A program made the translations under genes and the position numbers. The notes under the pieces are model-generated. The model saw only the letters and a program-made list of their open reading frames with translations. It ran no database searches and was not told the origin of the DNA. Positions 3,289 through 25,596 of a stretch of 28,229 nt of DNA are shown here, piece by piece. Numbering within the stretch: position 1 is the first letter of the stretch; every line of letters starts with the position of its first letter. Source of the DNA: a virus; the IMG/VR virus record IMGVR_UViG_3300009418_000084, positions 1 to 28,229 of that record; one strand, written 5' to 3'.

Positions 3289-3573
3289 ATGAGTATTTCG
3301 GATACAGAGTCAGAACTGAAGGAGTTATTAGAACAAGTAAACTATGCTCTATCAGATGAGTTCAAAGAAAAATGGAGACATAGATTTTCCACTAACTTTG
3401 TATCTATATTCCAAGACAGGTTATTAAAAGCTCTGAAGACAAGAAAGCCAGTTACAAGATCTAGTATTAGATCTTTATACACCAAACAGCATAAATACTC
3501 TATTTTAGAAGTTAATGCTTTCTTTAAAGAAATTGATTTATCTTTATATTATCCCTTGATAATCTTAGACTGA
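3289..3573 (+). CDS. Unknown small protein, 94 residues
   Basis: The product is charged and helical in its first half (SELKELLEQVNYAL) and ends with the hydrophobic PLIILD. I recognise no family with confidence; a small transcription or replication accessory protein would fit the size and the neighbouring replication genes, but that is a guess. The ATG at 3289 has no clear Shine-Dalgarno; a TATATAAAAT box lies upstream. Its 3' end overlaps the convergent nuclease gene by 25 bases. Codon use is AT-rich like its neighbours, supporting a real gene. Confidence 0.6.
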   Translation: MSISDTESELKELLEQVNYALSDEFKEKWRHRFSTNFVSIFQDRLLKALKTRKPVTRSSIRSLYTKQHKYSILEVNAFFKEIDLSLYYPLIILD

Positions 3574-4346
3574 TCTCGAGATTCTTTCTCTTTCCTTATT
3601 GCTTCTTCCAGAATTTGTGTAGTTCCTCCAAACTCTGGGCATAAATCTTTATACTGACACCAGTTACAAAACATGTTCTGTGTTGGTGGAAACTCAGTCT
3701 TCTTCTTTTTTCTTATCTCCCAAATCTTATTCTGTAGAACAGATAAAAACTGCCCTATTTGAGTTTTTCCATATTTCAAGGAGATAAGTTTATCCATATG
3801 AGGATAATAATGAGCTACCGTAATCTCATCTAAGGGAACTTTGTACATTTTCGATACAGCATAGGCATACATCATAAGCTGTGGATCCTTATACAGGTCT
3901 GTTGAAGTAGCTGCTCTTTTACTTGTTTTGTAGTCGATTACTAGATATTTCCCTGTTTTTCCTTTAACAATCCTATCAATAATGCCATTCATCTTATAGT
4001 CATCCTTCATCTCCACTTCAAATGCTAGCTCACTGCTTACATGTTCATGAAGCTGTGAATTAAACCTAAGGAAGTTAGTTAGGATTTTATCAACTCCCTT
4101 ATCTCTTGACTTAGGGAATTTATAGGTAGACCTGCATTCCTTTGCAATAGTTCTCAACTCTTCTAGAGAAGAAGAGTTGTATCCAAGTTCTAACACTTTA
4201 TGGATATAGGATCCAAACTGCAGTGCATCAGTGTTGGAGTTAGCGTTGTAAGTATTTCTCAAATAATCTATATATTTGAATTTATACTTCTTTTTGCACT
4301 CATAGTACGCTTTAATCTTAGAAGGAGAGACTTTATTTATAAACAT
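3549..4346 (-). CDS. PD-(D/E)XK nuclease with Fe-S cluster, RecB/Cas4-like
   Basis: The 265-residue protein shows the order typical of RecB/Cas4-type nucleases: FGSYIHKVLE with His49, IIDRI with Asp124, VIDYKTSK with Asp138 and Lys140, then DPQLMMYAYA with Gln156 and Tyr160. Cys17 plus Cys227, Cys230 and Cys236 near the C-terminus (FCNWCQYKDLCPEF) match the four-cysteine 4Fe-4S arrangement of Cas4 and AddB. Expected activity is metal-dependent DNA cleavage, probably exonuclease, in recombination or replication. It is not next to any CRISPR array, so a phage recombination role is more likely than spacer acquisition. Its ATG directly abuts the primase ATG on the other strand. Confidence 0.88.
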   Translation of the reverse strand: MFINKVSPSKIKAYYECKKKYKFKYIDYLRNTYNANSNTDALQFGSYIHKVLELGYNSSSLEELRTIAKECRSTYKFPKSRDKGVDKILTNFLRFNSQLHEHVSSELAFEVEMKDDYKMNGIIDRIVKGKTGKYLVIDYKTSKRAATSTDLYKDPQLMMYAYAVSKMYKVPLDEITVAHYYPHMDKLISLKYGKTQIGQFLSVLQNKIWEIRKKKKTEFPPTQNMFCNWCQYKDLCPEFGGTTQILEEAIRKEKESRDQSKIIKG

Positions 4347-8985: not shown

Positions 8986-10718
8986 GCGCCGTACTGCTCT
9001 TCGTCTTCCACGTCTTCTTGTTGGCCGCCGTTTACGCCCATACCTTTCACAAGAGCTTCTAGGTCATCAAGGAGTTTAGCAGCATCTGCGTGGTTCTTGT
9101 CTGTTCCAGTCCCTCCAGACTCAACCGAATCATCTCCTACAGGAAACCTATTACCGTTTGCCTCTTCCTCTCCAACTCCTTCTTCAGCTTCTGCCCCCTC
9201 TCCATTCTCACCCTCAAAAGGCTCTTCGTCTTTTACCTCGGCCTCTCCTGCTTCGCCAGGTCCAGCTTGAGGATCCTGGTCAGTTACAGCAAATTTCTCT
9301 TCGTCGCTAGGGACATCTTCTCCATTCTGTTGGATGTCTTCCTCTCCTTCTACCCCTAAGGGGGATGGTTCAGCATCGTAGTCCATTTCCGTGCCTTCAA
9401 TACCAGCTTCAATCGCATTTCCTTGTGGGTCACCCCCAAGAAGAGTTCTGAGAGCGGCTAGGTCCTTAGTTAGTTTTGGAACATTGATATAATTAGACAA
9501 TAGGTTTTCACCTACGATGTCAATGCCAGCTTCAGTTAAGCAGCTATGAATATAGTCATTAACTTCCAAAGTCTCAACGCCACCTTTCTTAGAGATGACT
9601 CTTGCGAATTCTTTAGAAACGTCATGTACTACACCCTCATCCTTACTCAACAACGACAAGACCTCAAAGAATACTGACTGAGTTTTCGCCAGGTTGCTAA
9701 AGGTTGGTACAAACTTGAGATTGGTTACATTAATCCCATAATTCTCATTCAAAACTTCTGTAATAGACTCCTTTGCGGGTTTTTTTGCTTCGAATAGAAG
9801 GCTTGTGAATTCTTTAATGTCTTTTTTAGAGATGAGATCGTTGGAATTAACTTCGTAAATGGATGTCAAAATTTCCTGGATTTCATTCTTAGGAGCAAAA
9901 GCAAAATAGGGGACATCTTCAATAACCTCAGAAAGTGTTTCTATTATAGCTTCTTCTTTTGCGTAAATCATGGATGCGAGATTTTGAATCTTTTCATTAG
10001 AGATCCAAACAGTAGAAAACGATCTTTTGGCATCCAAAAGCTCCTGGCTAATCAATTCTTGGTGACAAACCATTTCATAAAGGGATTGTCCATCACAGAG
10101 GTCAACTACAAACAAATCAGCATCCCTAAGGGAATCATAATCACAACGGTTAATAGTAAATGCCTTATTAATCGCGTTACTTATCTTTGCGCTGTTTATC
10201 ATGTCAGAGTTTTCCAAGACAGCTTTCTGATTTTCTCGAAGGAAATTAGTTACCAATGGTTTTATTTCCTCCAGCTTTTGAAATTCCTTGGACTCCGTAA
10301 TTTCAGTTTTTCCTGTCATAGGATCCAAAGACTTCTCAATTTTAGTCTCCAACCCTTTCATAGTGTTTCTGGATTCAAAAAGACCTATTAGGTCGTCGAA
10401 TGAAACATCTGCTTTGTCGTATCTGTTTTCCCTTAGGGAGTCAACAAAAGAATCTATTGCCTCTTTGATGGTACCCTCCACTTTATCCGCAGATACAAAT
10501 TCATCTACAGATTGTATTGAAAAATCTCTAAGCAAAAGCTTAGAATCTTTGACCTCGTAAGCACACGAGATTACAGAATTTTTCTCAGAAAGAAACTCTG
10601 CAGTTTTATTTACAGAATCAACTGAGAAAACTCTCAAATTTTCTCTCAGAGACCGACTAAGATAGTCGGCAGCCTTGTGCAAATTGGTAAGATCCTTATT
10701 TCGTTTCTCTAATAACAT
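8982..10718 (-). CDS. Probable head-associated protein with highly acidic C-terminal tail
   Basis: The 578-residue protein has a helical, Leu/Glu/Lys-rich body (1 to about 425) and a long acidic, Gly/Pro-rich tail (about 428-578) with runs such as GVGEEEANGN and EDVEDEEQYGA. I recognise no enzyme motif. It lies directly after the portal gene on the same strand, where T4-like phages place prohead core and scaffold genes; helical body plus acidic low-complexity tail fits a core, scaffold or inner head protein (inference). A GTATATAAAAT box followed by AGGA lies 12-23 bases before the ATG, suggesting its own promoter. The 3' end overlaps the small gene after uvsW by 4 bases. Confidence 0.7.
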   Translation of the reverse strand: MLLEKRNKDLTNLHKAADYLSRSLRENLRVFSVDSVNKTAEFLSEKNSVISCAYEVKDSKLLLRDFSIQSVDEFVSADKVEGTIKEAIDSFVDSLRENRYDKADVSFDDLIGLFESRNTMKGLETKIEKSLDPMTGKTEITESKEFQKLEEIKPLVTNFLRENQKAVLENSDMINSAKISNAINKAFTINRCDYDSLRDADLFVVDLCDGQSLYEMVCHQELISQELLDAKRSFSTVWISNEKIQNLASMIYAKEEAIIETLSEVIEDVPYFAFAPKNEIQEILTSIYEVNSNDLISKKDIKEFTSLLFEAKKPAKESITEVLNENYGINVTNLKFVPTFSNLAKTQSVFFEVLSLLSKDEGVVHDVSKEFARVISKKGGVETLEVNDYIHSCLTEAGIDIVGENLLSNYINVPKLTKDLAALRTLLGGDPQGNAIEAGIEGTEMDYDAEPSPLGVEGEEDIQQNGEDVPSDEEKFAVTDQDPQAGPGEAGEAEVKDEEPFEGENGEGAEAEEGVGEEEANGNRFPVGDDSVESGGTGTDKNHADAAKLLDDLEALVKGMGVNGGQQEDVEDEEQYGA

Positions 10719-10730
10719 AACGTCAATCCT

Positions 10731-10741
10731 ATTTTATATAC
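10731..10741 (-). promoter_or_regulatory. GTATATAAAAT box with AGGA before the acidic-tail protein gene
   Basis: The minus strand reads GTATATAAAATAGGA, which is identical over 15 bases to the string before the plus-strand gene at 15248. AGGA could be the ribosome site, 8 bases from the ATG. Identity between two unrelated intergenic sites argues for function, either promoter or leader. Confidence 0.5.
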
Positions 10742-10776
10742 TCTAGTGTATTTGTTTTCTTTTATAAAAGTTTGCA

Positions 10777-12465
10777 TTAAACCTTCGCCTGCGCCTTGGG
10801 AGCTTCTGCTGCTATAGTTTCATCTCCAGCCGCTTCTGTAGCACCAGGAGGTGCATCTTCTTCTGCTGCAGTAGGTGGTCCCATCGGCTCACCTCCCTGC
10901 ATTGGAGGAGCCCCAATGGCTCCAGGGTCTTGCTGCATCATTTCCTGCTCTTCATCGAGCATTTCTTTAACCTGAGACTTCATCTCCTCTATTTCATTCT
11001 CACTCATTTGGTAGTAATTTTTATAGAGATGGTCATCAGAGAATAGTTGAAGCCCTTTAACAGCTTGGACAACCCGTGTCTTTTGTTCGTCTAGTTCTAG
11101 ACGTCTCTTCTCAAACATATCAGAAGGTGGGCACAGCGCAATATCGATACTCTTGATGACATGTTCCGGGAAATTCTTTAACTTCAGATGTCTACGTGTG
11201 AGATTATTCAGACCAATTTCTACTTCTCTCTGTATTCTAGTTACGGCTCTGGCGAACTTAACATCTAGCTGAGACAGGTTAGCCTTCCTCTCTGGAGTAT
11301 TGTCCTTCTCTACAATGTAGTCTTTTGGAACCTTCAGAGCAGCTAATAGTTTGTCTCTAAAGTACTTAACATCATCTGTTTCCCCCAGGTTTTGGGCTCC
11401 GGGCAATGTTTCAATCTTAGTTTTACTGTTTGACCTAATAGGGACAAAGAAATCCTCTTCAGGCGCCATTGGGTTATAACGTTCATTGATAGTGCCAGTT
11501 GTGTTGTCCCAAAACTTTTCTTTTCTAAATTTAGCCTTTAGGCGCTCCATATACGTTTCTGCCTTCGAGGTAGGCATACTTCCGATGTCAACATAAAATA
11601 CGCGTCTCTCCGGTGCCCGCGCTAGCCTGTAGATTAGCATGGCATCTTCCATGATAACCAAGGATTTCCAAGCTCTTACACCTGGCTGTAAGATAGACTT
11701 CCCATAGGGATAAAAATTAGGATCAGAGGTGTGAATTCTGAAATGAACAATTTGTTCTTTATCGAGTTTTAAAAATTTCCCTGTCCCTCCCCCACCTTCC
11801 AATTGAGCGGAGTCAAAAGACGCATTAGAATCAGGGATTTCCTGTAAAAATTCTTTTAAATAACCATATTTATTTTCAATTCTAAAAATGAAATTTGGAT
11901 TTAAAACTTTTATCCTCTGAATACCAGCTTTGGTATTATTGAGATCTACAATATTCTCTATAAAACAATCTCCGTACTTGCAGACATTTCTGACAATATC
12001 CCAAATAAACTCCCGCATTCTCACATGTTCAAGGAATCTCTGGACTTCTTCTTTTACTGTCCTATTATCAGTTTCTATTTCAAATATTTTACCAGTTATA
12101 TTTTTTTGTGTCGAATCATCGGAATAGATGTCCAGAGCAGCTGCTATTTCTGGGTAGTCATCCATCTTCTCGTATTCCTTATACCGACGCTTTCTGTCGT
12201 ATTCTACTGCCGGTATCTTTGCTACACCCCTAGAGATACCAAAGCCAGGAACTCCACCAAATGTGTCATCCGTTTTTAGGGTGTCTCCAGCGAGCCTCCC
12301 ACCCTTCTCTTCAGGACGTCCTTTAAAACCTCCTCTAGAACCTCCAAAAAACTTATTAAACCACGCCGATAGACGAGACATCGGCTGACCCGCTACATTA
12401 CCTCTTGGGTTCGAAAAATTGGTGTAGGATTCGTCTAGGTTAGTTTTGTCTATTTCATCAGCCAT
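10777..12465 (-). CDS. 20: Portal vertex protein, T4 gp20-like
   Basis: The 562-residue protein has the T4-type portal pattern: DYPEIAAALDIYSDD near residue 100, then EFIWDIVRNVCKYGDCFIE, PNFIFRIEN, RAPERRVFYVDIG, and KLLAALKVPKDYIVE in the second half. The portal forms the dodecameric ring through which DNA enters and leaves the head. T4 gp20 has 524 residues; the excess here is a low-complexity tail of Met, Pro, Glu and Ala after about residue 505. AGAGGA at 12472-12477 lies 6 bases before the ATG. The start is nested 16 bases inside the end of the terminase gene, so the two are probably co-transcribed. Confidence 0.93.
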   Translation of the reverse strand: MADEIDKTNLDESYTNFSNPRGNVAGQPMSRLSAWFNKFFGGSRGGFKGRPEEKGGRLAGDTLKTDDTFGGVPGFGISRGVAKIPAVEYDRKRRYKEYEKMDDYPEIAAALDIYSDDSTQKNITGKIFEIETDNRTVKEEVQRFLEHVRMREFIWDIVRNVCKYGDCFIENIVDLNNTKAGIQRIKVLNPNFIFRIENKYGYLKEFLQEIPDSNASFDSAQLEGGGGTGKFLKLDKEQIVHFRIHTSDPNFYPYGKSILQPGVRAWKSLVIMEDAMLIYRLARAPERRVFYVDIGSMPTSKAETYMERLKAKFRKEKFWDNTTGTINERYNPMAPEEDFFVPIRSNSKTKIETLPGAQNLGETDDVKYFRDKLLAALKVPKDYIVEKDNTPERKANLSQLDVKFARAVTRIQREVEIGLNNLTRRHLKLKNFPEHVIKSIDIALCPPSDMFEKRRLELDEQKTRVVQAVKGLQLFSDDHLYKNYYQMSENEIEEMKSQVKEMLDEEQEMMQQDPGAIGAPPMQGGEPMGPPTAAEEDAPPGATEAAGDETIAAEAPKAQAKV

Positions 12466-13976: not shown

Positions 13977-14684
13977 ATGAAAAAAGTCGCATTTATTCCT
14001 ACTCGAGAAATATCAAAACCACAACCCATCACACAGTTCCTCGAATCCGCCGGATGGGAAGTTAGTATACTAAGTAATTACAAATCCATATTTGAAGCTT
14101 TGTGTACAGGAATGAAGAACGCTAATATACTAGCTGACGACTATGTCATATTATGTCATGACGATATTGAGATATTAACCAACGCAAAAGATTTCAACTT
14201 ATTCATACACAGTAACCTTGAGAAGCAAGACGTGGGGTTTTTAGGAGTTGCTGGTACTAGAATGTTAAAGAATTCGTGCGTGTGGTGGGAAGACTTGAAT
14301 AAAAATACAGAGTACATGAATCCCTTATCTGGCTTTGTTCTTCATGGGAAAAAGGAGGGTGCCATGTATGGAAGCTGGTATGGCCCCTACGGTCATGTCG
14401 CAGTCTTAGATGGCTTATTCTTGTGTGCGAAAGGTTCTACTTTAAATAGTATAAATTTGAAAAAACCTAAATTTTTTGAAGGTGACTGGGATTTTTATGA
14501 TATCTATTACACTACACAGGCCACTTTAAAAGGAAAGAAAAATTACACAATACCTATTCAAGTCATACACGAATCAATTGGTGACTTAGTCGGGAGAGAG
14601 TCTTGGCATAAAAATAGGCTCTCGTTTTCCAACACATTTTCTGAACACCTTCCTCTAGTCGCCGGGATAGTCAACAAAGTTTAA
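13977..14684 (+). CDS. Glycosyltransferase-like protein (GT-A type)
   Basis: The 235-residue protein starts with a Rossmann-type strand (KKVAFIPTR), has DDYVILCHDDIEIL at about residues 54-67 giving a DD/DxD-like metal and nucleotide-sugar site, then FLGVAGTRML, and a late FFEGDWDFYDIYYT region where catalytic acidic residues sit in GT2-like enzymes. This order matches the small glycosyltransferase-like family seen in bacteria and phages. It could modify phage DNA, virion proteins or host surface sugars; the substrate is not visible. It starts 33 bases from the divergent terminase gene and overlaps the convergent gene by 30 bases. Confidence 0.75.
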   Translation: MKKVAFIPTREISKPQPITQFLESAGWEVSILSNYKSIFEALCTGMKNANILADDYVILCHDDIEILTNAKDFNLFIHSNLEKQDVGFLGVAGTRMLKNSCVWWEDLNKNTEYMNPLSGFVLHGKKEGAMYGSWYGPYGHVAVLDGLFLCAKGSTLNSINLKKPKFFEGDWDFYDIYYTTQATLKGKKNYTIPIQVIHESIGDLVGRESWHKNRLSFSNTFSEHLPLVAGIVNKV

Positions 14685-15247: not shown

Positions 15248-15916
15248 ATGAAAGAAATCCCCACCAAATTTGTACAAGATATTAACGAAAATATTTTTAA
15301 AGGCTATGGAAATAAAAACAACCTAGGGTTTAACCCAGCAGAAAATGAAAAGCAATCTAGAGAGCTGGCGTCCGCTACCAAAGGTAAATTCACTGCTGCA
15401 CCCCCTGCTGGCAATGCACAGGAACCCAAAGTTACCGGTAATCAAGAGAATGCTGCCGCAGCCTCTAATGCAGGTCCTCACAACGACACATTCAGTCATG
15501 AAGCCGTAAAGGATGAAGGTGATGGAGTATCTCCTGCTGCCAATGTTGGTATTCCTCCTAATATTGCTAATAAATGGTCTATGCCAAAAACATTGTCTGA
15601 TTCCCAAATGGTTACAACTCCTGAAACCTCCCTTAATGAAAACCCTCTCCAAGACAGGGTTGACAAGCTAGAGGAAGCTTTGGCTACTATCGTTGCCGCA
15701 CTTAAGAAACAGCTTCACGAAGCCCGTTCTCCTAGCGCCGGTCTTTCGAAGAAGGAGAAGAAAACTACGGCAAAGAAAGCTGCAGCCGGAAAAGACATAG
15801 GGAAACCAGGTAAAAACTTTGCTAAAGTAGCCGCTAAAGCTGCCGGTAAATACGGAAGTGCTGCAGCGGGCAAGAGAGTTGCCGCAGCTGCCATGTGGAA
15901 AAACATCAAAAGGTGA
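15248..15916 (+). CDS. Lys/Ala-rich basic protein, possible head-internal or DNA-associated protein
   Basis: The 222-residue product starts MKEIPTKFVQDINENIF, continues with a disordered Ala/Asn/Pro-rich middle, a short probable coiled coil (DRVDKLEEALATIVAALKKQ, about residues 138-157) and a C-terminal tail full of Lys and Ala (KKTTAKKAAAGKD, KVAAKAAGKYGSAAAGK) like histone or histone-like tails. The N-terminal INE|N and an internal LNE|N resemble, but do not exactly match, T4 prohead protease sites ((L/I)-x-E before a small residue). It heads the plus-strand operon ending with dCMP deaminase. Function unknown; DNA binding inside the head is an inference from charge. Confidence 0.65.
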   Translation: MKEIPTKFVQDINENIFKGYGNKNNLGFNPAENEKQSRELASATKGKFTAAPPAGNAQEPKVTGNQENAAAASNAGPHNDTFSHEAVKDEGDGVSPAANVGIPPNIANKWSMPKTLSDSQMVTTPETSLNENPLQDRVDKLEEALATIVAALKKQLHEARSPSAGLSKKEKKTTAKKAAAGKDIGKPGKNFAKVAAKAAGKYGSAAAGKRVAAAAMWKNIKR

Positions 15917-15966
15917 TACTAACTGCTCTACTACTATCCCTCCCACAAACATGCCTCGAACACCAA

Positions 15967-16887
15967 ATGCCTGCTAAAACCGAAAAACAAGCAAACTTCA
16001 TGAGAGCAGTAGCACACGGATGGAAACCTAAAGGCCGAAAAGCCCCATCCCCCTCTGTTGCTCGTCATTTCATGCATGTCAAAGAACAAGCACCCACAAA
16101 AAGATTTGGTGGACGCGAAGATAGGTTACGATCTATAGGTGCACAACTTGGAACTACGGCTGGAAAAGATGTAGCCAGGAGAACCGGTTTCGTCGGTACC
16201 CAAAGTAAAGATGAAGCAAGGAGAGGTGGTTTCCAAGGAACTCAACGACTAGATGTTGCTCGCAAAGAAGGGAGATTCGGCAAAATGAATCCTGATAAAG
16301 ATAGAGCATTTACACAAAGGACATCAAGACCTTCCACTCCAACCCTTAGTAGAAGGTCAGGGGAACTCCGTTTGGCAGCAAACAAAGAACACGGAGGATC
16401 CCCTCTAAGAGACAATAAAATGAACAACTTTATACACAATCCATATCAAATAACTCCAGAAACTATGGTTAATAAATCTTGGAGATCCACGGTCTTAGAA
16501 GATAGCGAAGTAGAAGCTGCTGAAGTAGAATCAAAAACTAAACAAGCAGCTTTAGATAGAGCACGTTCGCGCTTAAAGCGCTCTCGTGAGGCCGCTAAAT
16601 CTGCTACTAAAAGATTACTAAGTCTTCAAGCCCAATCTAGCAGAACGGGACACGTTAGACCTCCAGAGCGTCTAGCTGCTAACCAAGAATACGAAGGTGA
16701 ACTTCAAAACGAAGTAACCAAGAAGAGGAAAAAGGCTCAAGAAGAATTGGAACAGGCTGCAAAAGAAAATAAGCCTACTAACCGGAAAATAAGAAGAATG
16801 TTTCGTAAGTCTGGAAAGCAAAGGCAATTAGACATTACAACTACTCATGGCGGAAGAATGCCTGGTGAGTCTTATAATAAAAATTAG
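15967..16887 (+). CDS. Basic protein with 'KQANFMRAVAH' N-terminus and tandem repeats
   Basis: From ATG 15967 the product has 306 residues. The start MPAKTEKQANFMRAVAHGW followed by SVARHFM is a widespread short N-terminal motif of small phage proteins of unknown function, which is why this start is preferred over the in-frame GTG at 15895; no Shine-Dalgarno is visible for either. Residues 62-104 hold three related units of 14-15 residues (GT...DxARRxGF). The segment RLAAN(K/Q)E occurs twice (135, 235). The C-terminus holds EGELQNE (243-249) and RKIRRMFRKSG (273-283), a module shared with the convergent 310-residue protein. Very basic; possibly packaged with DNA (inference). Confidence 0.65.
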   Translation: MPAKTEKQANFMRAVAHGWKPKGRKAPSPSVARHFMHVKEQAPTKRFGGREDRLRSIGAQLGTTAGKDVARRTGFVGTQSKDEARRGGFQGTQRLDVARKEGRFGKMNPDKDRAFTQRTSRPSTPTLSRRSGELRLAANKEHGGSPLRDNKMNNFIHNPYQITPETMVNKSWRSTVLEDSEVEAAEVESKTKQAALDRARSRLKRSREAAKSATKRLLSLQAQSSRTGHVRPPERLAANQEYEGELQNEVTKKRKKAQEELEQAAKENKPTNRKIRRMFRKSGKQRQLDITTTHGGRMPGESYNKN

Positions 16888-17182: not shown

Positions 17183-17593
17183 ATGACAATTACCAGGTTT
17201 GATCTGGCTTATATGAAGATGGCAGAGGAATGGAGTAACCTGTCCGTAGCCAATAGAAAGAAAGTTGGATGCCTTATAGTAAAACGTGGTCAAATCATCT
17301 CAGATGGCTTCAACGGCTCTCCTAGAGGATTTCCTAATGAATGTGAAGGGGAAGACGGAAAAACCCTTGAACACGTCCTGCACGCCGAGAGCAACGCTGT
17401 GACGAAGCTGGCAAAGAGTACTAACTCTTCTGAGGGAGCTTTTCTGTATGTTACTCTCTCCCCTTGTTTTGAATGTGCTAAACTTATTATTCAGGCAGAG
17501 ATTTCCCGCGTTGTATGCGGAGAAAAGTACAGAGTTAGAGACGGAATTAAACTGCTAAGAAAAGCTGGTATTGTAGTCGAGTTTATTGACTAA
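17183..17593 (+). CDS. cd: dCMP deaminase
   Basis: The 136-residue enzyme has the zinc-dependent deaminase signature: HAESN with His67 and catalytic Glu69, and TLSPCFECAK with Cys95 and Cys98 as zinc ligands. The FNGSPRGFPNECE segment (43-55) is typical of the dCMP deaminase branch (ComEB/T4 Cd). It converts dCMP to dUMP, feeding thymidylate synthesis for phage DNA. Length is below T4 Cd (193) but near bacterial ComEB-type enzymes. It is last in the plus-strand operon and its stop overlaps the convergent basic protein gene by 4 bases. Confidence 0.92.
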   Translation: MTITRFDLAYMKMAEEWSNLSVANRKKVGCLIVKRGQIISDGFNGSPRGFPNECEGEDGKTLEHVLHAESNAVTKLAKSTNSSEGAFLYVTLSPCFECAKLIIQAEISRVVCGEKYRVRDGIKLLRKAGIVVEFID

Positions 17594-18522
17594 GGATAGT
17601 TTGGCAAGTCGCCATACATCTGATCGTCTGCTTCCTGTTTAGCTGATTGATGCAAGGCGCCACCTCTTCTGAAGGCCACTCTTAGCTTTCTGTATGGTCG
17701 GCTTCCTTTTACCTTCTCAGCGGCTTTCTTAGCTAAATCACGAACGCCTGCTTCATTTTGAAGTTCGCCTTCCAATCTTCTGCTTTCCCTAGGACCACCA
17801 GCCTTAAATGCCTTCGTAGCTTTTCTTACCCTCATCCACCTCTTGAAACGACCCAAAGGTCTTACAGCCTTTCTTGCGCGAGCCGCTCTTTGCCTTGGAG
17901 ACATTGGAAGAAATCCGGCATCCTTGACTCCAGTCCCGGGACCCTCTGCGCCCATCGAGCGGCTGGTGTCTGCCCTTAAATTCCTTATGGAGCGAGCTGT
18001 TTGATTCCGTAGCAGTCTTACTTCCTTCCCTGGTGAGGTCCGTCGGGGGCTTATCCCCTCCGGAGATCCAGCGGCGACATTTTGTGCCTGTGTGTCTGAT
18101 CCAACTCCAGCCATAAACCGGTCATGCTCGTCTGGAACTTTCATTTTCTGTGCCCCAGTCCTTCCACCGGTAGTTTGGACGTAGCGGTTCGCGGCGCTCT
18201 CGGCCTCTCCTCCCCGCTTGTGCAGCCCTGCCACTTTTCGTTCTCGCGAGCGAGTAGCTCTAGCTGCAAAACTTGTAGGGTCGCTAACAGGTTTAAGTTC
18301 GTTAATCCCGTCACCTTCGTGTTCTTGGTGATCACCCTGCATTTCTTGGCGTTCCCTCTTGCCTGCTCCCTCTTCATCGGAATAGTCATAGTCTCTAATC
18401 TTGGATTTTTTAGCCTTGGATTTTTTAGCCTTCTTTTTGGCTTCCATCATAGTCTTAGTCTTCATGGACTCGTTAATGAAGCGGTTAACAGTCTCTTCTG
18501 AAATTTGAGTAGGGTGTTTCAT
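17590..18522 (-). CDS. Basic Arg/Lys-rich protein with capsid-targeting-like N-terminus
   Basis: The 310-residue protein starts MKHPTQISEETVNRFINE|SM, where INE|S (16-19) fits the T4 prohead protease rule (L/I-x-E before Ala/Gly/Ser); T4 internal proteins use similar short N-terminal targeting peptides. Next come a Lys run made of a duplicated AKKSK unit (residues 32-41), an acidic patch (DYDYSDEEG), and a long Arg-rich region. The C-terminus carries EGELQNEA (251-258) and RKLRVAFRRGG (278-288), shared with the 306-residue protein encoded on the other strand. Likely disordered and nucleic-acid binding; a packaged internal head protein is inferred. It follows the hydrolase gene by 10 bases. 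Confidence 0.65.
   Translation of the reverse strand: MKHPTQISEETVNRFINESMKTKTMMEAKKKAKKSKAKKSKIRDYDYSDEEGAGKRERQEMQGDHQEHEGDGINELKPVSDPTSFAARATRSRERKVAGLHKRGGEAESAANRYVQTTGGRTGAQKMKVPDEHDRFMAGVGSDTQAQNVAAGSPEGISPRRTSPGKEVRLLRNQTARSIRNLRADTSRSMGAEGPGTGVKDAGFLPMSPRQRAARARKAVRPLGRFKRWMRVRKATKAFKAGGPRESRRLEGELQNEAGVRDLAKKAAEKVKGSRPYRKLRVAFRRGGALHQSAKQEADDQMYGDLPNYP
18401..18430. repeat. Perfect 15-bp tandem duplication
   Basis: CTTGGATTTTTTAGC occurs twice head to tail (18401-18415 and 18416-18430). On the minus strand it encodes two copies of AKKSK in the basic protein, so it changes the length of a Lys run without breaking the frame. Confidence 0.9.
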
Positions 18523-18532
18523 TCTATTATAT

Positions 18533-21500
18533 TTAGAGAGGGGACTTCAGTATTGTATTGTTTATTGGTAATAATAAGAAGGAATTACCCCCAATTCTAA
18601 TTCTTAACTCAAATTCTTCGAAACTAGGTAACCCAGTAAATACCCCACCTGCGATAGGATATTTAGAGCCTGGAATTCCTTCAACCTTACTTCCCTCCTC
18701 ATACGGGGGCTGTTGTATAGACATATTCCACAGTTTAACTCTTATTCTGTTTCCTGAGGAGAATTTATAGTAATACGGATTTAAGGGGAATTTTGCTCTA
18801 TAGAAATTAGAAGTACTTGTAGTCTGTTGATCAACTTGAGAATACAACGCTCCTACCACATACTTTTCATTTTCTGCTGGATCTACTTCATACAGCGCGG
18901 CAAAGATTTGAAAAGACCCTGTGTTTGAGCTTACATCAATAACCGCGCTAGGAGAGCCAAGAAGAGTTTTTGGTTTGTTCAATACAGGTCCATCCCATGA
19001 AATATTAGTGCTGGATACCATAGGGACCTCTCCATAATGTCCCGGGTAGCCCTTGTATTGTGAGTAGCTATCTTTATTGATGTCTATAGCGCTCGGAACT
19101 AGCATCCTGTGTTGGTATACATCATTTTTATAGTAACCTTCAACATTACTCCTGTACCAATTACGAAAAATTACTCCTGGTGCTGGTTCGGGAGGGTCTA
19201 TAAGATCCCTATCCCCTACCCCACCAACAGAAAGAGGTATATCATGTGTTGGGACGAAAGGAAATATCCCTTCACCCCACGATTCAACGAGATTCTCGAA
19301 ATCTCCAGAGGAAAACATTAACCTGTGGTTTATAGAAAATCTATGATAGTCAGTTGTTGATAACGGATCATCTAAGTCAATTCTCAACAACGAGTCATAC
19401 GGAGGAGGCCAATGATCGAATTGTGATACAAATTTTTCAGAGTCTGGGTTATTATACTCTTCACCTTCAGGGACAGTAATCATTCCAGCTGCGGGTAAAT
19501 AGTCTACAAATCCTTGTGGTGCTGTGTTGACTGCCGACAATAAATAATTTTTGTTGTCTATAGGAATTGGAACCCCTCTAGCCCAGTAGCTAATCCAATC
19601 TTTTTCTCTTTTATCTATCAAAGCGAATTCTTTGTTACTGCGTGCGGTTCCGTGAGCCACCCCGTGTGTACATAAAAATGTCGTTTTTGCGTTTTTGTTT
19701 TGTTCAGCTCTTTTTATAAAATACTGTATGTTGTTAACAGGTGACATAATGATGTCATCATACCCCATATGGAATGCTATGTTAGTATCGGATGAGTACC
19801 ACCTACTAAACCATACTTTATCCCCGTCAAATTCTCCGGAAATATAAGGGAGAATTGCCGTGCCAAAATTTTCGTAATTAGGTTGATATCCTTCCTCTGT
19901 ATCCTCACTAGAATACATCCTCCCTAATTTAAAAGATGCCCCCCCATAACCCTTGGAACACACTTTAATGATTTCCCCCGCTTCCAAACTTACAAGGCCC
20001 TCAGGCATGCACCTATACCAGCCATATCTTTCAATTACAGGCGAATTGGAAGATGAAGTGTAGCTATCCCACGTCGATCCGGACTTTGTATATGCTTTAG
20101 GCCATACCCACGATGCAAATGGTAGTTCAACGCCTGCATCCGTAGATCTGGGATCAAAATGAAGCATTCCGGAAGGCGCATAAGGTACGTTTCCAATTGC
20201 TCCATATTCGCTGAAATTCAACTCCGTCTCACTGTGATTAACTTTTCCTGTTCGAAAGAAAGTCTTTAAGCTGTCCCAATCCCACTTTTCCCACCAATAC
20301 TCCACAGGAAAAATACACACAGGATTAGACCAAATCCCTAAGTCTTGTAGGTCCCAACCCTTAAACTGATCGGGATTATAATACTCTAAGGAATCAGACC
20401 ATTGAGTTTTTCCTTTTTTGGCATATAGAAAAAAACTAAAATGTTGTTTGATTCCTCCATCCCATTCTCCTTCAGTAACATGACCCCATGCATCAATCAG
20501 GGCACCTCCAGCATGGATTGATTTTATAGTCCTGAATCCCTGCAAAGGAAATTGGTTATCTATTGGATTGTATGGATCAGTAGCGCTATACTTCCGAAAT
20601 CCATTTTCCGGATCTTCTGCTCCTGATCTTGGATTCATGTAAGATTTTCCAAACTCCAAAGTAGAAGTATTATAATTATATCTTACAAGCTTATCGATTG
20701 ACATGTTTTGAGTATATTTGAGACCCGAGTCTACAGACATATAAAGTGGTACGGCTCCAGCCAGAGAAAAACCAGCGGCGTGCATATTATCCAAATCCAT
20801 CAAGAGTTTAAACTCATTTCTCGATGGGTGGGGAACCATTATAGTTTTTTCGTTCTCCTCTCCTTTATTCTCATTTTGAATAAGACTTCCATCTCTATCA
20901 AATATTTGAGAAGTTATTTTAGTCGGCTCAAATACTAATGGTGTTTGACCACCTTGTCCTACATCGTATGCTGTTCCTTGGTAGAGACACTCTATAACTT
21001 CCCAAGTATCCAACCTGTGTCTAATCGAAGTCTCATAACTCCTACCACGGAATCGTGGATCATTTCTAGCTACGGATTCGCCACGACCCCTAATATCAGG
21101 TAGAATGACAAAAAACCCTCTCTCTGTCCATTTTAGTGCTTCTTGACCTACAAGAGTTCTGTTAGAAGGCCCAGTATGGGATACGATCATTACAGGAAGT
21201 TTGTCTCCTCCAGCAAGGGCTACTTCAGAACTCTCGATTGAGTAGCGAAAATCTACTAGCATATAATATCCATCAGACAGGATAATACCTCCAGTGCTCT
21301 CTATAATAGCCTGAGGGGGGAATTCTGGGTGCTGCTGACGAATCTTGTAGATATAATCCCCATCCCTCCATATCCTAGCCTGAGCTGTTAGAGTGTAAAC
21401 TCCGTAAGATTCAAAGCTATCTTCCTGGACTTCGTACACTGCATAGAAAAAATTCTGAAACGCAGGACGGATAACGTCTCCAGCCCGAAGATTTCTACCA

Positions 21501-21865
21501 AGAAGTTTTCTTATCTCTTCTCTGTTAAAAGTAAAAGACAACTCACTAGTCAATTCTAATCCAAATTCAGATAAATTCTCCTGGATAGGAACCGGATCGA
21601 AATGAGCGTAAGTCCCTACTGGAACTGGGGATAGAGCTTTTATACGATCTTCGTCGTATAAATCATCAAAGTTTTCTGTAGATAAAAACTTATAAACAGT
21701 GACTTCGGATCCCCCCAATTTAATTAGTTCATTATTGACCATATTAAAAAGAGCTCTGTCAGCCCCGAAATCTTCGAAAACTGACAGAGTCCCTTCATTA
21801 AAAATATCTTCAATTTCTAATCCATTCTCAAGATTAGGTGCATTAAATTGGTCTTTATCCGACAT
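18533..21865 (-). CDS. Neck-domain / alpha-beta hydrolase fusion: gp14-like N-terminus, S15/CocE-type hydrolase, PepX_C-like jelly roll
   Basis: This 1110-residue protein has three parts. Residues about 25-175 follow T4 neck protein gp14 (NNELIKLGGSEVTVYKF, then SEFGLELTSELSFTFNREE, then RAGDVI, then FYAVYEV). Residues about 195-750 form an alpha/beta hydrolase of the S15 peptidase/CocE-NonD esterase group: MLVDFRYS, LPVMIVSH, LPDIRGRGES (255-264), nucleophile GFSLAG (Ser367), acid in GYDDIIMSP (Asp704) and His738 in THGVAHG, with a long insertion between Ser and Asp. Residues about 945-1095 look like the jelly-roll of X-Pro dipeptidyl peptidases (LLGSPSAVIDVSS, GNRIRVKLWNMS). It is probably a virion-bound hydrolase; the substrate is unknown. 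The ATG at 21865 has no clear ribosome site and may be coupled to the gene 15 bases upstream. Confidence 0.85.
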   Translation of the reverse strand: MSDKDQFNAPNLENGLEIEDIFNEGTLSVFEDFGADRALFNMVNNELIKLGGSEVTVYKFLSTENFDDLYDEDRIKALSPVPVGTYAHFDPVPIQENLSEFGLELTSELSFTFNREEIRKLLGRNLRAGDVIRPAFQNFFYAVYEVQEDSFESYGVYTLTAQARIWRDGDYIYKIRQQHPEFPPQAIIESTGGIILSDGYYMLVDFRYSIESSEVALAGGDKLPVMIVSHTGPSNRTLVGQEALKWTERGFFVILPDIRGRGESVARNDPRFRGRSYETSIRHRLDTWEVIECLYQGTAYDVGQGGQTPLVFEPTKITSQIFDRDGSLIQNENKGEENEKTIMVPHPSRNEFKLLMDLDNMHAAGFSLAGAVPLYMSVDSGLKYTQNMSIDKLVRYNYNTSTLEFGKSYMNPRSGAEDPENGFRKYSATDPYNPIDNQFPLQGFRTIKSIHAGGALIDAWGHVTEGEWDGGIKQHFSFFLYAKKGKTQWSDSLEYYNPDQFKGWDLQDLGIWSNPVCIFPVEYWWEKWDWDSLKTFFRTGKVNHSETELNFSEYGAIGNVPYAPSGMLHFDPRSTDAGVELPFASWVWPKAYTKSGSTWDSYTSSSNSPVIERYGWYRCMPEGLVSLEAGEIIKVCSKGYGGASFKLGRMYSSEDTEEGYQPNYENFGTAILPYISGEFDGDKVWFSRWYSSDTNIAFHMGYDDIIMSPVNNIQYFIKRAEQNKNAKTTFLCTHGVAHGTARSNKEFALIDKREKDWISYWARGVPIPIDNKNYLLSAVNTAPQGFVDYLPAAGMITVPEGEEYNNPDSEKFVSQFDHWPPPYDSLLRIDLDDPLSTTDYHRFSINHRLMFSSGDFENLVESWGEGIFPFVPTHDIPLSVGGVGDRDLIDPPEPAPGVIFRNWYRSNVEGYYKNDVYQHRMLVPSAIDINKDSYSQYKGYPGHYGEVPMVSSTNISWDGPVLNKPKTLLGSPSAVIDVSSNTGSFQIFAALYEVDPAENEKYVVGALYSQVDQQTTSTSNFYRAKFPLNPYYYKFSSGNRIRVKLWNMSIQQPPYEEGSKVEGIPGSKYPIAGGVFTGLPSFEEFELRIRIGGNSFLLLPINNTILKSPL

Positions 21866-22613: not shown

Positions 22614-23078
22614 CTACGCAGGAGATATGACTCGGCTTGCATGTATATTTATTAAAGCTTCAGATCCACCACTAAATACTAACTTGTCTACGCCTACCCC
22701 ATATCCCGGTGTTATTTTTATTCCTTGCGGGAATCTAATCGTTTCTGCCTTCTTGGCCTTTGTAGTAAGAACAAGAAAAACGGCGTCATCTATAGTTTGA
22801 TCAGAGTGGGCAATTGCGGGATCATAGAAAGACCCTCCCCATAGTACTCCTGCAGTGGCTATTGTGATAGACCAGACAACCCAGTAGTCTGAACTTTTTC
22901 CCTCTGGAAAATAACTTGTATTGGAAGGTGCGGGAAGGAACACGTATGGAGTCCCATAGGTTTTGAGATTGATAGAAGATGCAGTAGTTACAGCTGAGTC
23001 CTTGAGACCTTCCACAGAAGCTCCTTCTTGCCTCTTCCATCCTGGGGTATATGCTATTCCACTATTAGTTGCAGCCAT
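22614..23078 (-). CDS. Virion-like beta protein, paralogue A of a tandem pair
   Basis: The 154-residue protein begins MAATNSGIAYTPGWKRQEG, almost the same as the next upstream gene, followed by a Ser/Thr/Tyr-rich beta pattern, a central SDYWVVWSITIATAGVLWGG, and FLVLTTKAKKAETIRFP then GYGVGVDKLVFSGG. The second half looks like a small beta-sandwich of a decoration, head-fibre or tail-fibre type. The first 16 codons are nearly identical in the two genes, while the rest is strongly diverged. A structural role is inferred from composition and the block of virion genes. Confidence 0.65.
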   Translation of the reverse strand: MAATNSGIAYTPGWKRQEGASVEGLKDSAVTTASSINLKTYGTPYVFLPAPSNTSYFPEGKSSDYWVVWSITIATAGVLWGGSFYDPAIAHSDQTIDDAVFLVLTTKAKKAETIRFPQGIKITPGYGVGVDKLVFSGGSEALINIHASRVISPA

Positions 23079-23084
23079 AGTCTG

Positions 23085-23531
23085 TTACCCGTCTGTTTGT
23101 TCGGTATAGTATATCGTAAGCCACCTATTTCCGGTTCCAGTATTTTGATTTATCCTGACTCCGTGTCCACTAGCTATCTCAATTGGGTTATTGAACATTT
23201 CTTTGTTAGGCACGTTTTGTGTAGCTCCAAAGAGTACGAAATCTTCTCCTTCTATAAGAGAAGCAGGTCTCGTAGCGTCATATTGGGAAGAGTAAAGAGT
23301 TCCTGTATAATCAGTTGAGTTATCAGTAGCAATGGCATACCCCCAGATATAGTAGAAATTAGTCGATGTTGTAGGTTTTGGCAACAGCATAATACCACTT
23401 GTATTTGTGCTACCAGATTGACCAAAAGAAGAAAAGGAGTAGGTTGAACCTCCTTTTACAAGCCCTACAGATTTCTTACCGGTACGTTTCCATCCGGGAG
23501 TATACGCGATTCCACTATTAGTTGCACCCAT
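23085..23531 (-). CDS. Virion-like beta protein, paralogue B of a tandem pair
   Basis: The 148-residue protein begins MGATNSGIAYTPGWKRTGK and shares the layout of the neighbouring 154-residue protein: Ser-rich first third, a YYIWGYAIATDNSTDYTGTLY stretch split by aromatic residues in the same place as the WVVWSITIATAG segment, then DFVLFGATQNVPNKE and GHGVRINQ. The two genes are 6 bases apart, consistent with tandem duplication. It is likely a small beta-sandwich virion protein; decoration protein or fibre is possible. No enzymatic motif is visible. Confidence 0.65.
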   Translation of the reverse strand: MGATNSGIAYTPGWKRTGKKSVGLVKGGSTYSFSSFGQSGSTNTSGIMLLPKPTTSTNFYYIWGYAIATDNSTDYTGTLYSSQYDATRPASLIEGEDFVLFGATQNVPNKEMFNNPIEIASGHGVRINQNTGTGNRWLTIYYTEQTDG

Positions 23532-23572: not shown

Positions 23573-23773
23573 TTATTTCAATACTCCTAGGTCTTTCCAG
23601 AATTCTTCTCTGTACAGAATATCACAGTAGTAACATTGTATTTCTTTTATACCAAGCTCAAGATGAAAGGCGTGCCGGTGAATCCTCACTAACTGACGTT
23701 CTGCGTGTTTTGGCATAAGTATGCTACAAGATGGAAGAAAAATCAGCGGTAGAAGGACTAACAGTGATTTCAT
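23573..23773 (-). CDS. Small lipoprotein, 66 residues
   Basis: The N-terminus MKSLLVLLPLIFLPSC is a lipoprotein signal with lipobox LPSC, giving a mature N-terminal Cys16. The remaining 50 residues contain His and Arg (AERQLVRIHRHAFHLELG) and a CYYC pair. It would be anchored to the inner or outer membrane of a Gram-negative-type host. Small phage lipoproteins include Rz1-type outer spanins and superinfection-exclusion proteins; either could fit, though no proline-rich Rz1-like stretch is present. Its ATG overlaps the stop of the 608-residue gene as ATGA. Confidence 0.7.
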   Translation of the reverse strand: MKSLLVLLPLIFLPSCSILMPKHAERQLVRIHRHAFHLELGIKEIQCYYCDILYREEFWKDLGVLK

Positions 23774-25596
23774 TTTTTCTTTTTAAGGCTCCTACGGTGG
23801 CGAGCAAGTCTACTTAATCTACGTTCGTCTCCCTTATGCCCAGGCTTCTTCTTAGGTCGTCTAGAACCGCCTGAGCCATATATAGGGGGTTGGTAACTTC
23901 CAACCTTAATATCCCTAGCAACATAGGGTCCTCCATCACTTGAAGCAACCTCATCTTCGTGCTTTTGCCTTATCTCTGTTCTTTCTTCGGTATCTCTAGC
24001 GTGTTCTTCACCTTTCGGAGTTCCAGGCTTACCTCGTCGTCTTTCCGATAGTATGTCACCTAAGGTTCTTTTGTGGGAAAAATCAATTTCTCCCTCTTCC
24101 TTTGCAGTTGCCCTTGTTTTTGGTCCGCGACCAAAACGACCTTTCTTCTTCCTATCGGCATCAGGTATGTCACCTTTGTTTCCACCGTACTTTTGGCGTT
24201 TCTTCCCTTTCTTTTTACCACGAAGGTTCTTAAGATCTTTGGCGTCGATGTCACCGTCTTTGTCGGTATCCATTACGTCTTCTTGTTTTCCGCTTAAACC
24301 GTTACCGTTTTTGAAGTCAATTTCACCTTCTTCTTTAGCGGTTTCTCTAGTCTTAGGACCTCTTCCAAAATGACCCTTCTTCTCTCGATCAGCGTCGGGA
24401 ATGTCTCCTTTATTGCCTCCGTACTTCTGGCGTTCGGTTACGGGTCCGGGAGCGCTTTGTAGTTGCTCCAAGTCGCTGAGCGTTAGAGAAGCGCTTTCCG
24501 CTAAAATTTTATCGTGATTGTATTTCATACTGGAGTCTTCTCTTTTAGCGCCAGTCTTGTCTTTCTTAATGAGTTCTTTCGAGGTTTCCATACGTTTAGG
24601 ACCACCTTGTATTATTTTGCCCATTCGCTGGTTTAAATTCGAAACTCCCTGCAGTGCGTCTTCATGTCGTTTCCGTTCTGCGTTACGACTCTTCACACCC
24701 GCCACACGCCTCTTTATATCTGCTTCATGAGCCGGAGACAGAATTTTCGGTTCTCCTCGCGCAGGCTGTGCCGAGTGCTTCATAGGACCAACGGTTTGGC
24801 AACCGGGTGTGCCGGGTGCGCATGCAGTTGTTGAGGCAGCTGCCAAAGCAGCGGGAATTGCCACTTTTCTCCCCACTCTCTTCGCAATATCGCCTATCTT
24901 TCCTTCCACTCTTACCAATTTTCTTTGTGGGTTATTATCGTGACTGTATTTCATATTTGAATTTTCCATAGCTTCATTATTTTTTCCCTTTTTCCATTCT
25001 TCACCCTCATCATCGGCATCCATAAATCCCTTCAACTTATCCATAGCAATATCCTTATCCCTATACGACCACTCTGGAGGATTTCTCCTGCTTCTCCTAT
25101 TCATACTGAATCGAATTTTTTTTCCTAAGTCTCCCGTGCTAATATCTCCGGCTCCAACTCTGTCTGGGATATAATCTTTACCTCCAGGACCTTCTCCCGT
25201 CTCAATAGATCCCCTACTTTGGCTATAGTTGTGTCTTGCGTCCTCGACACCTTTATCGTAATCCCTCCTAGTTTCCCACCCTTGGATGTGGCGCGTCACA
25301 GGGCCACGACGAGGATTTTGAGTGTGTCTTTGATAACGATCTACTGTTCTATCTCTAATCCTGTCAATTGCTTTATAACCTGCCATGGCACGATGTATGG
25401 GCGCAGGTGGTGGCTTTCCTGGGCTTTTACCCGTATACCTTTCTTCTTGCCTAGCCTTGTTATATTGATCTGACCGCCGAGAAGCTCGCATGTTCCGGGC
25501 AGAGAATGCTCTACCGACTCTATAGCCTGTCTCGTATGGATTATCTCCTGTTGTACGTCCTTCCGAGAATGGTATTAATTTTCTTTTGGTAGCCAT
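23770..25596 (-). CDS. Large basic repeat protein with EF-hand-like loop, 608 residues
   Basis: The protein is very rich in Lys, Arg and Gly. Residues 389-428 and 467-506 are two copies of a 40-residue module (RQKYGGNKGDIPDADR then KKG(H/R)FGRGPKTR then TAKEEGEIDF), 37/40 identical. Between them, DTDKDGDIDAKD at 443-454 is a perfect EF-hand/dockerin-type calcium loop. A nonapeptide-like element (E(N/D)S(N/S)MKY(S/N)HD) occurs near 211 and 353; the second is followed by ILAE|S, a T4 prohead-protease-like site. An internal hydrophobic patch ends in STTAC (254-259). The C-terminus is SRLARHRRSLKKKK. Likely a disordered nucleic-acid-binding or head-internal protein (inference). No known family recognised. 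Confidence 0.65.
   Translation of the reverse strand: MATKRKLIPFSEGRTTGDNPYETGYRVGRAFSARNMRASRRSDQYNKARQEERYTGKSPGKPPPAPIHRAMAGYKAIDRIRDRTVDRYQRHTQNPRRGPVTRHIQGWETRRDYDKGVEDARHNYSQSRGSIETGEGPGGKDYIPDRVGAGDISTGDLGKKIRFSMNRRSRRNPPEWSYRDKDIAMDKLKGFMDADDEGEEWKKGKNNEAMENSNMKYSHDNNPQRKLVRVEGKIGDIAKRVGRKVAIPAALAAASTTACAPGTPGCQTVGPMKHSAQPARGEPKILSPAHEADIKRRVAGVKSRNAERKRHEDALQGVSNLNQRMGKIIQGGPKRMETSKELIKKDKTGAKREDSSMKYNHDKILAESASLTLSDLEQLQSAPGPVTERQKYGGNKGDIPDADREKKGHFGRGPKTRETAKEEGEIDFKNGNGLSGKQEDVMDTDKDGDIDAKDLKNLRGKKKGKKRQKYGGNKGDIPDADRKKKGRFGRGPKTRATAKEEGEIDFSHKRTLGDILSERRRGKPGTPKGEEHARDTEERTEIRQKHEDEVASSDGGPYVARDIKVGSYQPPIYGSGGSRRPKKKPGHKGDERRLSRLARHRRSLKKKK
24079..24198 (-). repeat. 40-codon protein module, copy 2
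   Basis: Encodes residues 467-506 of the 608-residue protein. 37 of 40 residues match copy 1 (24313-24432), but 25 of those 37 are encoded by a different codon, so the DNA similarity is much lower than the protein similarity. Confidence 0.9.
24313..24432 (-). repeat. 40-codon protein module, copy 1
   Basis: Encodes residues 389-428. Substitutions relative to copy 2 are Glu/Lys (405), His/Arg (410-equivalent in the FGRG segment) and Glu/Ala (before KEEGEIDF). The copies are 78 codons apart with the EF-hand loop between. Confidence 0.9.

Follow-up and report, generated by a model that had tools for sequence, protein, structure and literature searches.

The DNA analysed here (the window, a 28,229-base virus record) is a fragment of a T4-like uncultured phage. 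It carries one intact ORF of 1110 aa on the minus strand (18533-21865), with zero internal stops, in which a neck protein appears to be fused to an enzyme. Profile comparison and predicted structure identify residues ~25-175 of the product as a neck domain of the T4 gp14 type (head-closure Hc2). The sequence of the remaining ~920 aa points to a hydrolase of the CocE/NonD (S15-like) kind, divergent and bearing a PepX_C jelly roll, the catalytic core being the weaker part of this assignment. We consider it probable that the product is a neck protein in which a gp14-like N-terminus carries a CocE/S15-type serine hydrolase with PepX_C, six copies of which face outward at the neck and cut polymers. 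We infer the presence in virions, the six copies, the outward orientation, catalysis and the substrate.

Viral and genome scans returned just two further copies of the hydrolase, in contigs L002 and L019, which gives two lineages (window/L002 and L019). L002 holds a second copy of the fused ORF, with a single, non-synonymous difference in 3330 bases. L019, with a terminase 83% identical to that of the window, carries its hydrolase in the same neighbourhood, at 45-48% identity to residues 267-1104. The features of the fused gene are listed below.

18533-21865, minus strand: whole fused gene, 1110 aa; intact ORF, the same in contig L002 with one nucleotide difference
21341-21793, minus strand: predicted gp14/head-closure Hc2 neck domain, residues ~25-175 (homologues, PDB profile match, Foldseek)
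21296-21340, minus strand: junction, residues 176-190 (alignment and ORF ends; stand-alone relatives stop shortly beyond this point)
19556-21295, minus strand: residues ~191-770, a putative alpha/beta-hydrolase domain, divergent and with enlarged insertions (TIGR00976 stretch, shuffles, identity to L019)
21074-21097, minus strand: DIRGRGES motif, residues 257-264 (motif and weak profile alignment)
20756-20773, minus strand: GFSLAG, residues 365-370, with candidate nucleophile Ser367 (GFSLGG in L019)
19748-19765, minus strand: GYDDII, residues 701-706, with candidate acid Asp704 (GYDDIF in L019; by eye the GWaD of CocE relatives)
19649-19669, minus strand: THGVAHG, residues 733-739, with candidate His738 and His734 as the alternative (THGGAHG in L019)
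19400-19414, minus strand: HWPPP, resembling the xxWPPP that lies between the core and the jelly roll in CocE proteins (motif likeness)
18731-18982, minus strand: PepX_C jelly-roll match, residues 962-1045 (PF08530 E=9e-4, L019, hhalign)

The ORF and all motifs quoted in the sequence-only reading are present in the sequence; the strand, which that reading did not give, is minus. The architecture it proposed, a gp14 neck domain followed by a CocE/S15-type hydrolase and PepX_C, was recovered by independent tests, apart from the Peptidase_S15 profile (PF02129), which gave no match to the window protein even at E<=10.

When the whole protein was compared by tblastn with 50,697 phage records, a single match was found (residues 25-129, 31% identity, E=6e-8), to a neck-locus protein of a 595-kb uncultured phage (L003:14938-15561). 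This protein matches phrog_679 (head closure Hc2) at E=1.6e-4, and its gene adjoins that of the gp15 sheath stabilizer, with a gp13-type adaptor close by. As a single sequence, the N-terminal domain of the fused protein matches phrog_679 weakly (E=0.12) and has no Pfam match. A family profile built from 13 members aligns to a set of eight gp14 proteins in hhalign (E=6.2e-7, probability 92), covering the T4 gp14 core, and when this profile is compared with the whole PDB, T4 gp14 is the sole match at E<=1 (E=1.7e-4). These searches bear out the gp14 pattern originally read from the letters. An AlphaFold model of residues 1-190 has a pLDDT of 63, with the core blocks mostly at 60-84. Foldseek comparison of this model with the PDB, a structural check that had been set beforehand, ranked four T4 gp14 chains highest (E from 2.8e-6) instead of giving no gp14-type match; the TM-score to 9mkb is 0.52, and many neck proteins are among the best matches to viral models.

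T4 gp14 (head closure Hc2; PDB 9mkb, 9lu4-9lu7) and the window protein share a domain of ~150 residues with matching fold and motif order and a recognizable stopper-loop segment (FG...DE). The neighbourhood resembles that of T4 gp14 in part: the window encodes a T4-type portal (PF07230, E=3.7e-87) and a terminase near the fused gene, as well as the gp26 baseplate protein, but gp13 and gp15 were not recognized within its 28 kb. In contrast to the fused protein, T4 gp14 has 256 aa, ends in a short flexible C-terminus and carries no enzyme.

The C-terminal part resembles the CocE/NonD family (TIGR00976), which includes cocaine esterase (1ju3) and alpha-amino acid ester hydrolase (1mpx), in having DxRGxGxS, GxSxG, an acid and a His in order, as well as a WPPP segment and a PepX_C jelly roll. 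It differs in its large insertions (337 residues from Ser to Asp), its fused neck domain, its lack of an S15 Pfam match and the oxyanion Tyr, which was not seen. Against the TIGR00976 profile, the window protein reaches E=1.6e-8 (34.1 bits, below the curated cut-off of 66.3). In the L002 copy, residues 222-265 align to profile positions 21-68 (E=2.3e-4) and residues 959-1057 to positions 415-511 (E=2.1e-8), two stretches that are colinear and in the correct order. The assignment to CocE made from sequence alone is upheld by this match, although below the curated threshold.

The jelly roll, which the sequence-only reading had proposed for the C-terminus, is the firmer portion: PF08530 (PepX_C) matches the window copy at E=9e-4 (19.6 bits) and L019 at E=1.5e-9 (38.5 bits), under and over the Pfam cut-off of 22.5, respectively, and hhalign against a profile of six CocE proteins aligns it at E=1.8e-7 and the DIRGRGES region weakly. 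Against the CocE profile the catalytic half by itself reaches 3.9 bits, compared with 3.0 for the highest-scoring of 1000 residue shuffles, and is therefore barely above chance. AlphaFold modelling of the hydrolase part from two sequences gave a pLDDT of 27. When the L019 hydrolase was used in tblastn, 119 plasmid records matched; of the matches listed, those that carry an annotation are CocE/NonD hydrolases, a peptidase or an X-Pro dipeptidyl-peptidase. As a search query, a Tsukamurella hydrolase is spoiled by a fused ABC domain.

The CocE profile alignment stops short of the putative triad motifs, which are present in order. DIRGRGES, GFSLAG, GYDDII and GVAHG, all quoted in the sequence-only reading, are present, and the latter three are kept in L019; in the form GxSxG, GYDD and HGxAH they are common to two proteins with 48% overall identity. 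Local identity to L019 around Ser367 lies in the 94th percentile, and that around Asp704 and His738 is just moderately above average. The Asp and His assignments are candidates that follow motif likeness and order. The L019 segment equivalent to HWPPP aligns at the matching place in the profile with a non-significant score. By eye, the oxyanion-Tyr strand reads PVLLVRNPY in CocE proteins and PVMIVSHTG here, with no tyrosine seen at the expected S15 oxyanion position.

This missing tyrosine, together with the weak hydrolase-profile matches of the core, leaves some room for our main rival explanation, a binding module: the C-terminal part would have a hydrolase fold but serve to bind host or environmental polymers, as an adhesin or a decoration of the neck, and would not cut them. 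Other neck proteins do carry non-enzymatic additions. Cyanophage gp14 (phrog_460, 374-390 aa) likewise consists of a gp14 core with a C-terminal addition, but the latter is a beta-repeat that is not hydrolase-like, a beta-rich tail common to fibre and baseplate proteins. The neck ORF of Tenacibaculum phage PTm1 (619 aa) has the same plan, with a lectin-like addition (a weak Laminin_G_3 match) in place of a hydrolase. The motifs retained in L019, however, count against a binding module, because a dead enzyme could freely lose them, and we regard this explanation as unlikely, though deserving of serious consideration.

Relatives of the virus were sought by a terminase scan, which gave 17 loci. 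The 84-kb contig L026 follows the gene order of the window for a dozen genes, among them TerL, portal, helicase, gp26 and primase; at the place of the fused gene it encodes a stand-alone gp14 of 182 aa with no further domain, 49.7% identical to residues 27-168 of the fused protein. The other relatives found outside the window's own virus also have a stand-alone gp14, of ~180-215 aa from a conserved start, and a CocE-type gene is absent from L026 and from the eight other non-fused records searched. In the simplest history, the hydrolase would have been joined to gp14 in one sub-lineage. The hydrolase part has the same GC content as the neighbouring genes and is therefore not obviously a recent foreign insert.

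The comparison with L026 also bears on whether the fused protein forms the neck ring at all. The fused copy could be a duplicate that brings an enzyme into the virion or acts in the cell, with the working gp14 encoded elsewhere; since the record is a 28-kb fragment, a second gp14 is conceivable. Yet the fused gene occupies the exact place of the sole matched gp14 in colinear L026, and no second match to the fused protein was found in the window, so a duplicate seems quite improbable.

That the enzyme is an X-prolyl or related PepX-like peptidase, carried likewise at the neck and acting on proteins instead of esters, is less probable again. PepX_C is common to both groups, but for L019 the match to CocE_NonD has E=5.9e-5 and that to the PepX equivalog E=0.18, far under its cut-off, and the window protein matches CocE_NonD and not the PepX equivalog. 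Because the L019 contig ends inside the hydrolase, ahead of any gp14 part, the junction is known from the window and the near-identical L002 alone; even so, we rejected as very improbable that two genes had been joined artificially, by the assembly or a frame error, given that one open frame, with a single difference in 3330 bases, is shared by two contigs that diverge elsewhere, and that L019 has a homologue in the same neighbourhood.

Other genes of the window showed several further features. The alignment to L002 breaks off at 17655-18311, between flanks that are >99.7% identical; this stretch lies inside a basic, low-complexity ORF of 310 aa (17590-18522), which thus varies between close strains. 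The ORFs at 15895-16887 and 17590-18522, on opposite strands, are both basic and Lys/Arg-rich, share the peptide EGELQNE and are perhaps internal head proteins. At 22614-23531, two adjacent minus-strand ORFs of 154 and 148 aa with near-identical starts (ATNSGIAYTPGWKR) resemble a tandem duplication; Pfam gave no match for either. A basic ORF of 608 aa (23770-25596) contains an internal repeat (RQKYGGNKGDIPDADR) and an EF-hand/dockerin-like stretch, DTDKDGDIDAKDL; 31 residues around the latter recur at 81% identity in an L026 protein (10610-12334) that is otherwise different. A Cas4-like nuclease (3549-4346; TIGR00372, E=2e-12, under cut-off) is conserved and colinear in L026, and a plus-strand glycosyltransferase-like gene (13977-14684; PF13712) adjoins the terminase, a position kept in L019 and L026.

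In T4, gp14 forms a hexamer below the gp13 dodecamer, and its C-terminus, the last ~80 residues from residue 178, is flexible and touches gp15 in the virion (PMC12270204). By homology, the first ~175 residues of the fused protein would assemble as a ring of six, with the gp13 ring on one side and the tail on the other. The enzyme would begin about where the T4 gp14 core ends (near residue 177) and the flexible arm starts. Because it follows the gp14 core directly and, at ~100 kDa, would not fit the ring lumen, it is predicted to project outward. As gp14 and the enzyme are joined in one gene, each virion probably carries around six hydrolases where head and tail meet, six if the ring matches that of T4. 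These would hydrolyse ester bonds (peptide bonds being less likely) in polymers met by the virion, for which acylated polysaccharide, lipopolysaccharide or slime, from the host or its surroundings, are candidates. We hold it to be an even chance that the neck of this T4-like phage bears an active ring of six CocE-type serine hydrolases, a cellular-type hydrolase fused directly to gp14.

The earlier statement that no phage neck protein of such architecture had been described agrees with our searches of phage records and of the open-access literature, in which a neck-CocE protein was not found. The hydrolase part has zero tblastn matches in the 50,697 phage records. CocE matches in unannotated phage records (Listeria, Staphylococcus, faecal) were set aside as they resemble host DNA. 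Two known systems offer partial parallels. In Pseudomonas phage DEV, the N-terminal barrel collar of gp53 shows an esterase-like domain outward; gp53 is, however, a podophage long tail fibre with a carbohydrate-esterase-like domain and not a head-closure protein, and LPS hydrolase activity was not detected in DEV virions (PMC10925440). The lactococcal neck passage structure is also an accessory structure at the neck (PMC4759559) but is a separate siphophage protein, with no enzyme fused to the head-closure protein. The combination of gp14 with a CocE-type hydrolase was thus not encountered in any further phage record searched, whereas gp14 with other additions and an esterase-like collar were already known.

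The usual known sites of phage enzymes attacking host surfaces are fibres, spikes and baseplates. If our reading is true, surface polymers would be processed along the shaft of the tail, or by diffusing virions, and not only at the tail tip. The fusion would be a natural example of a neck ring tolerating ~100 kDa of cargo per subunit, and it offers a clear testable construct in a single residue, Ser367. It would show the small, essential head-closure ring to be a display scaffold and would widen the places in which to seek virion enzymes.
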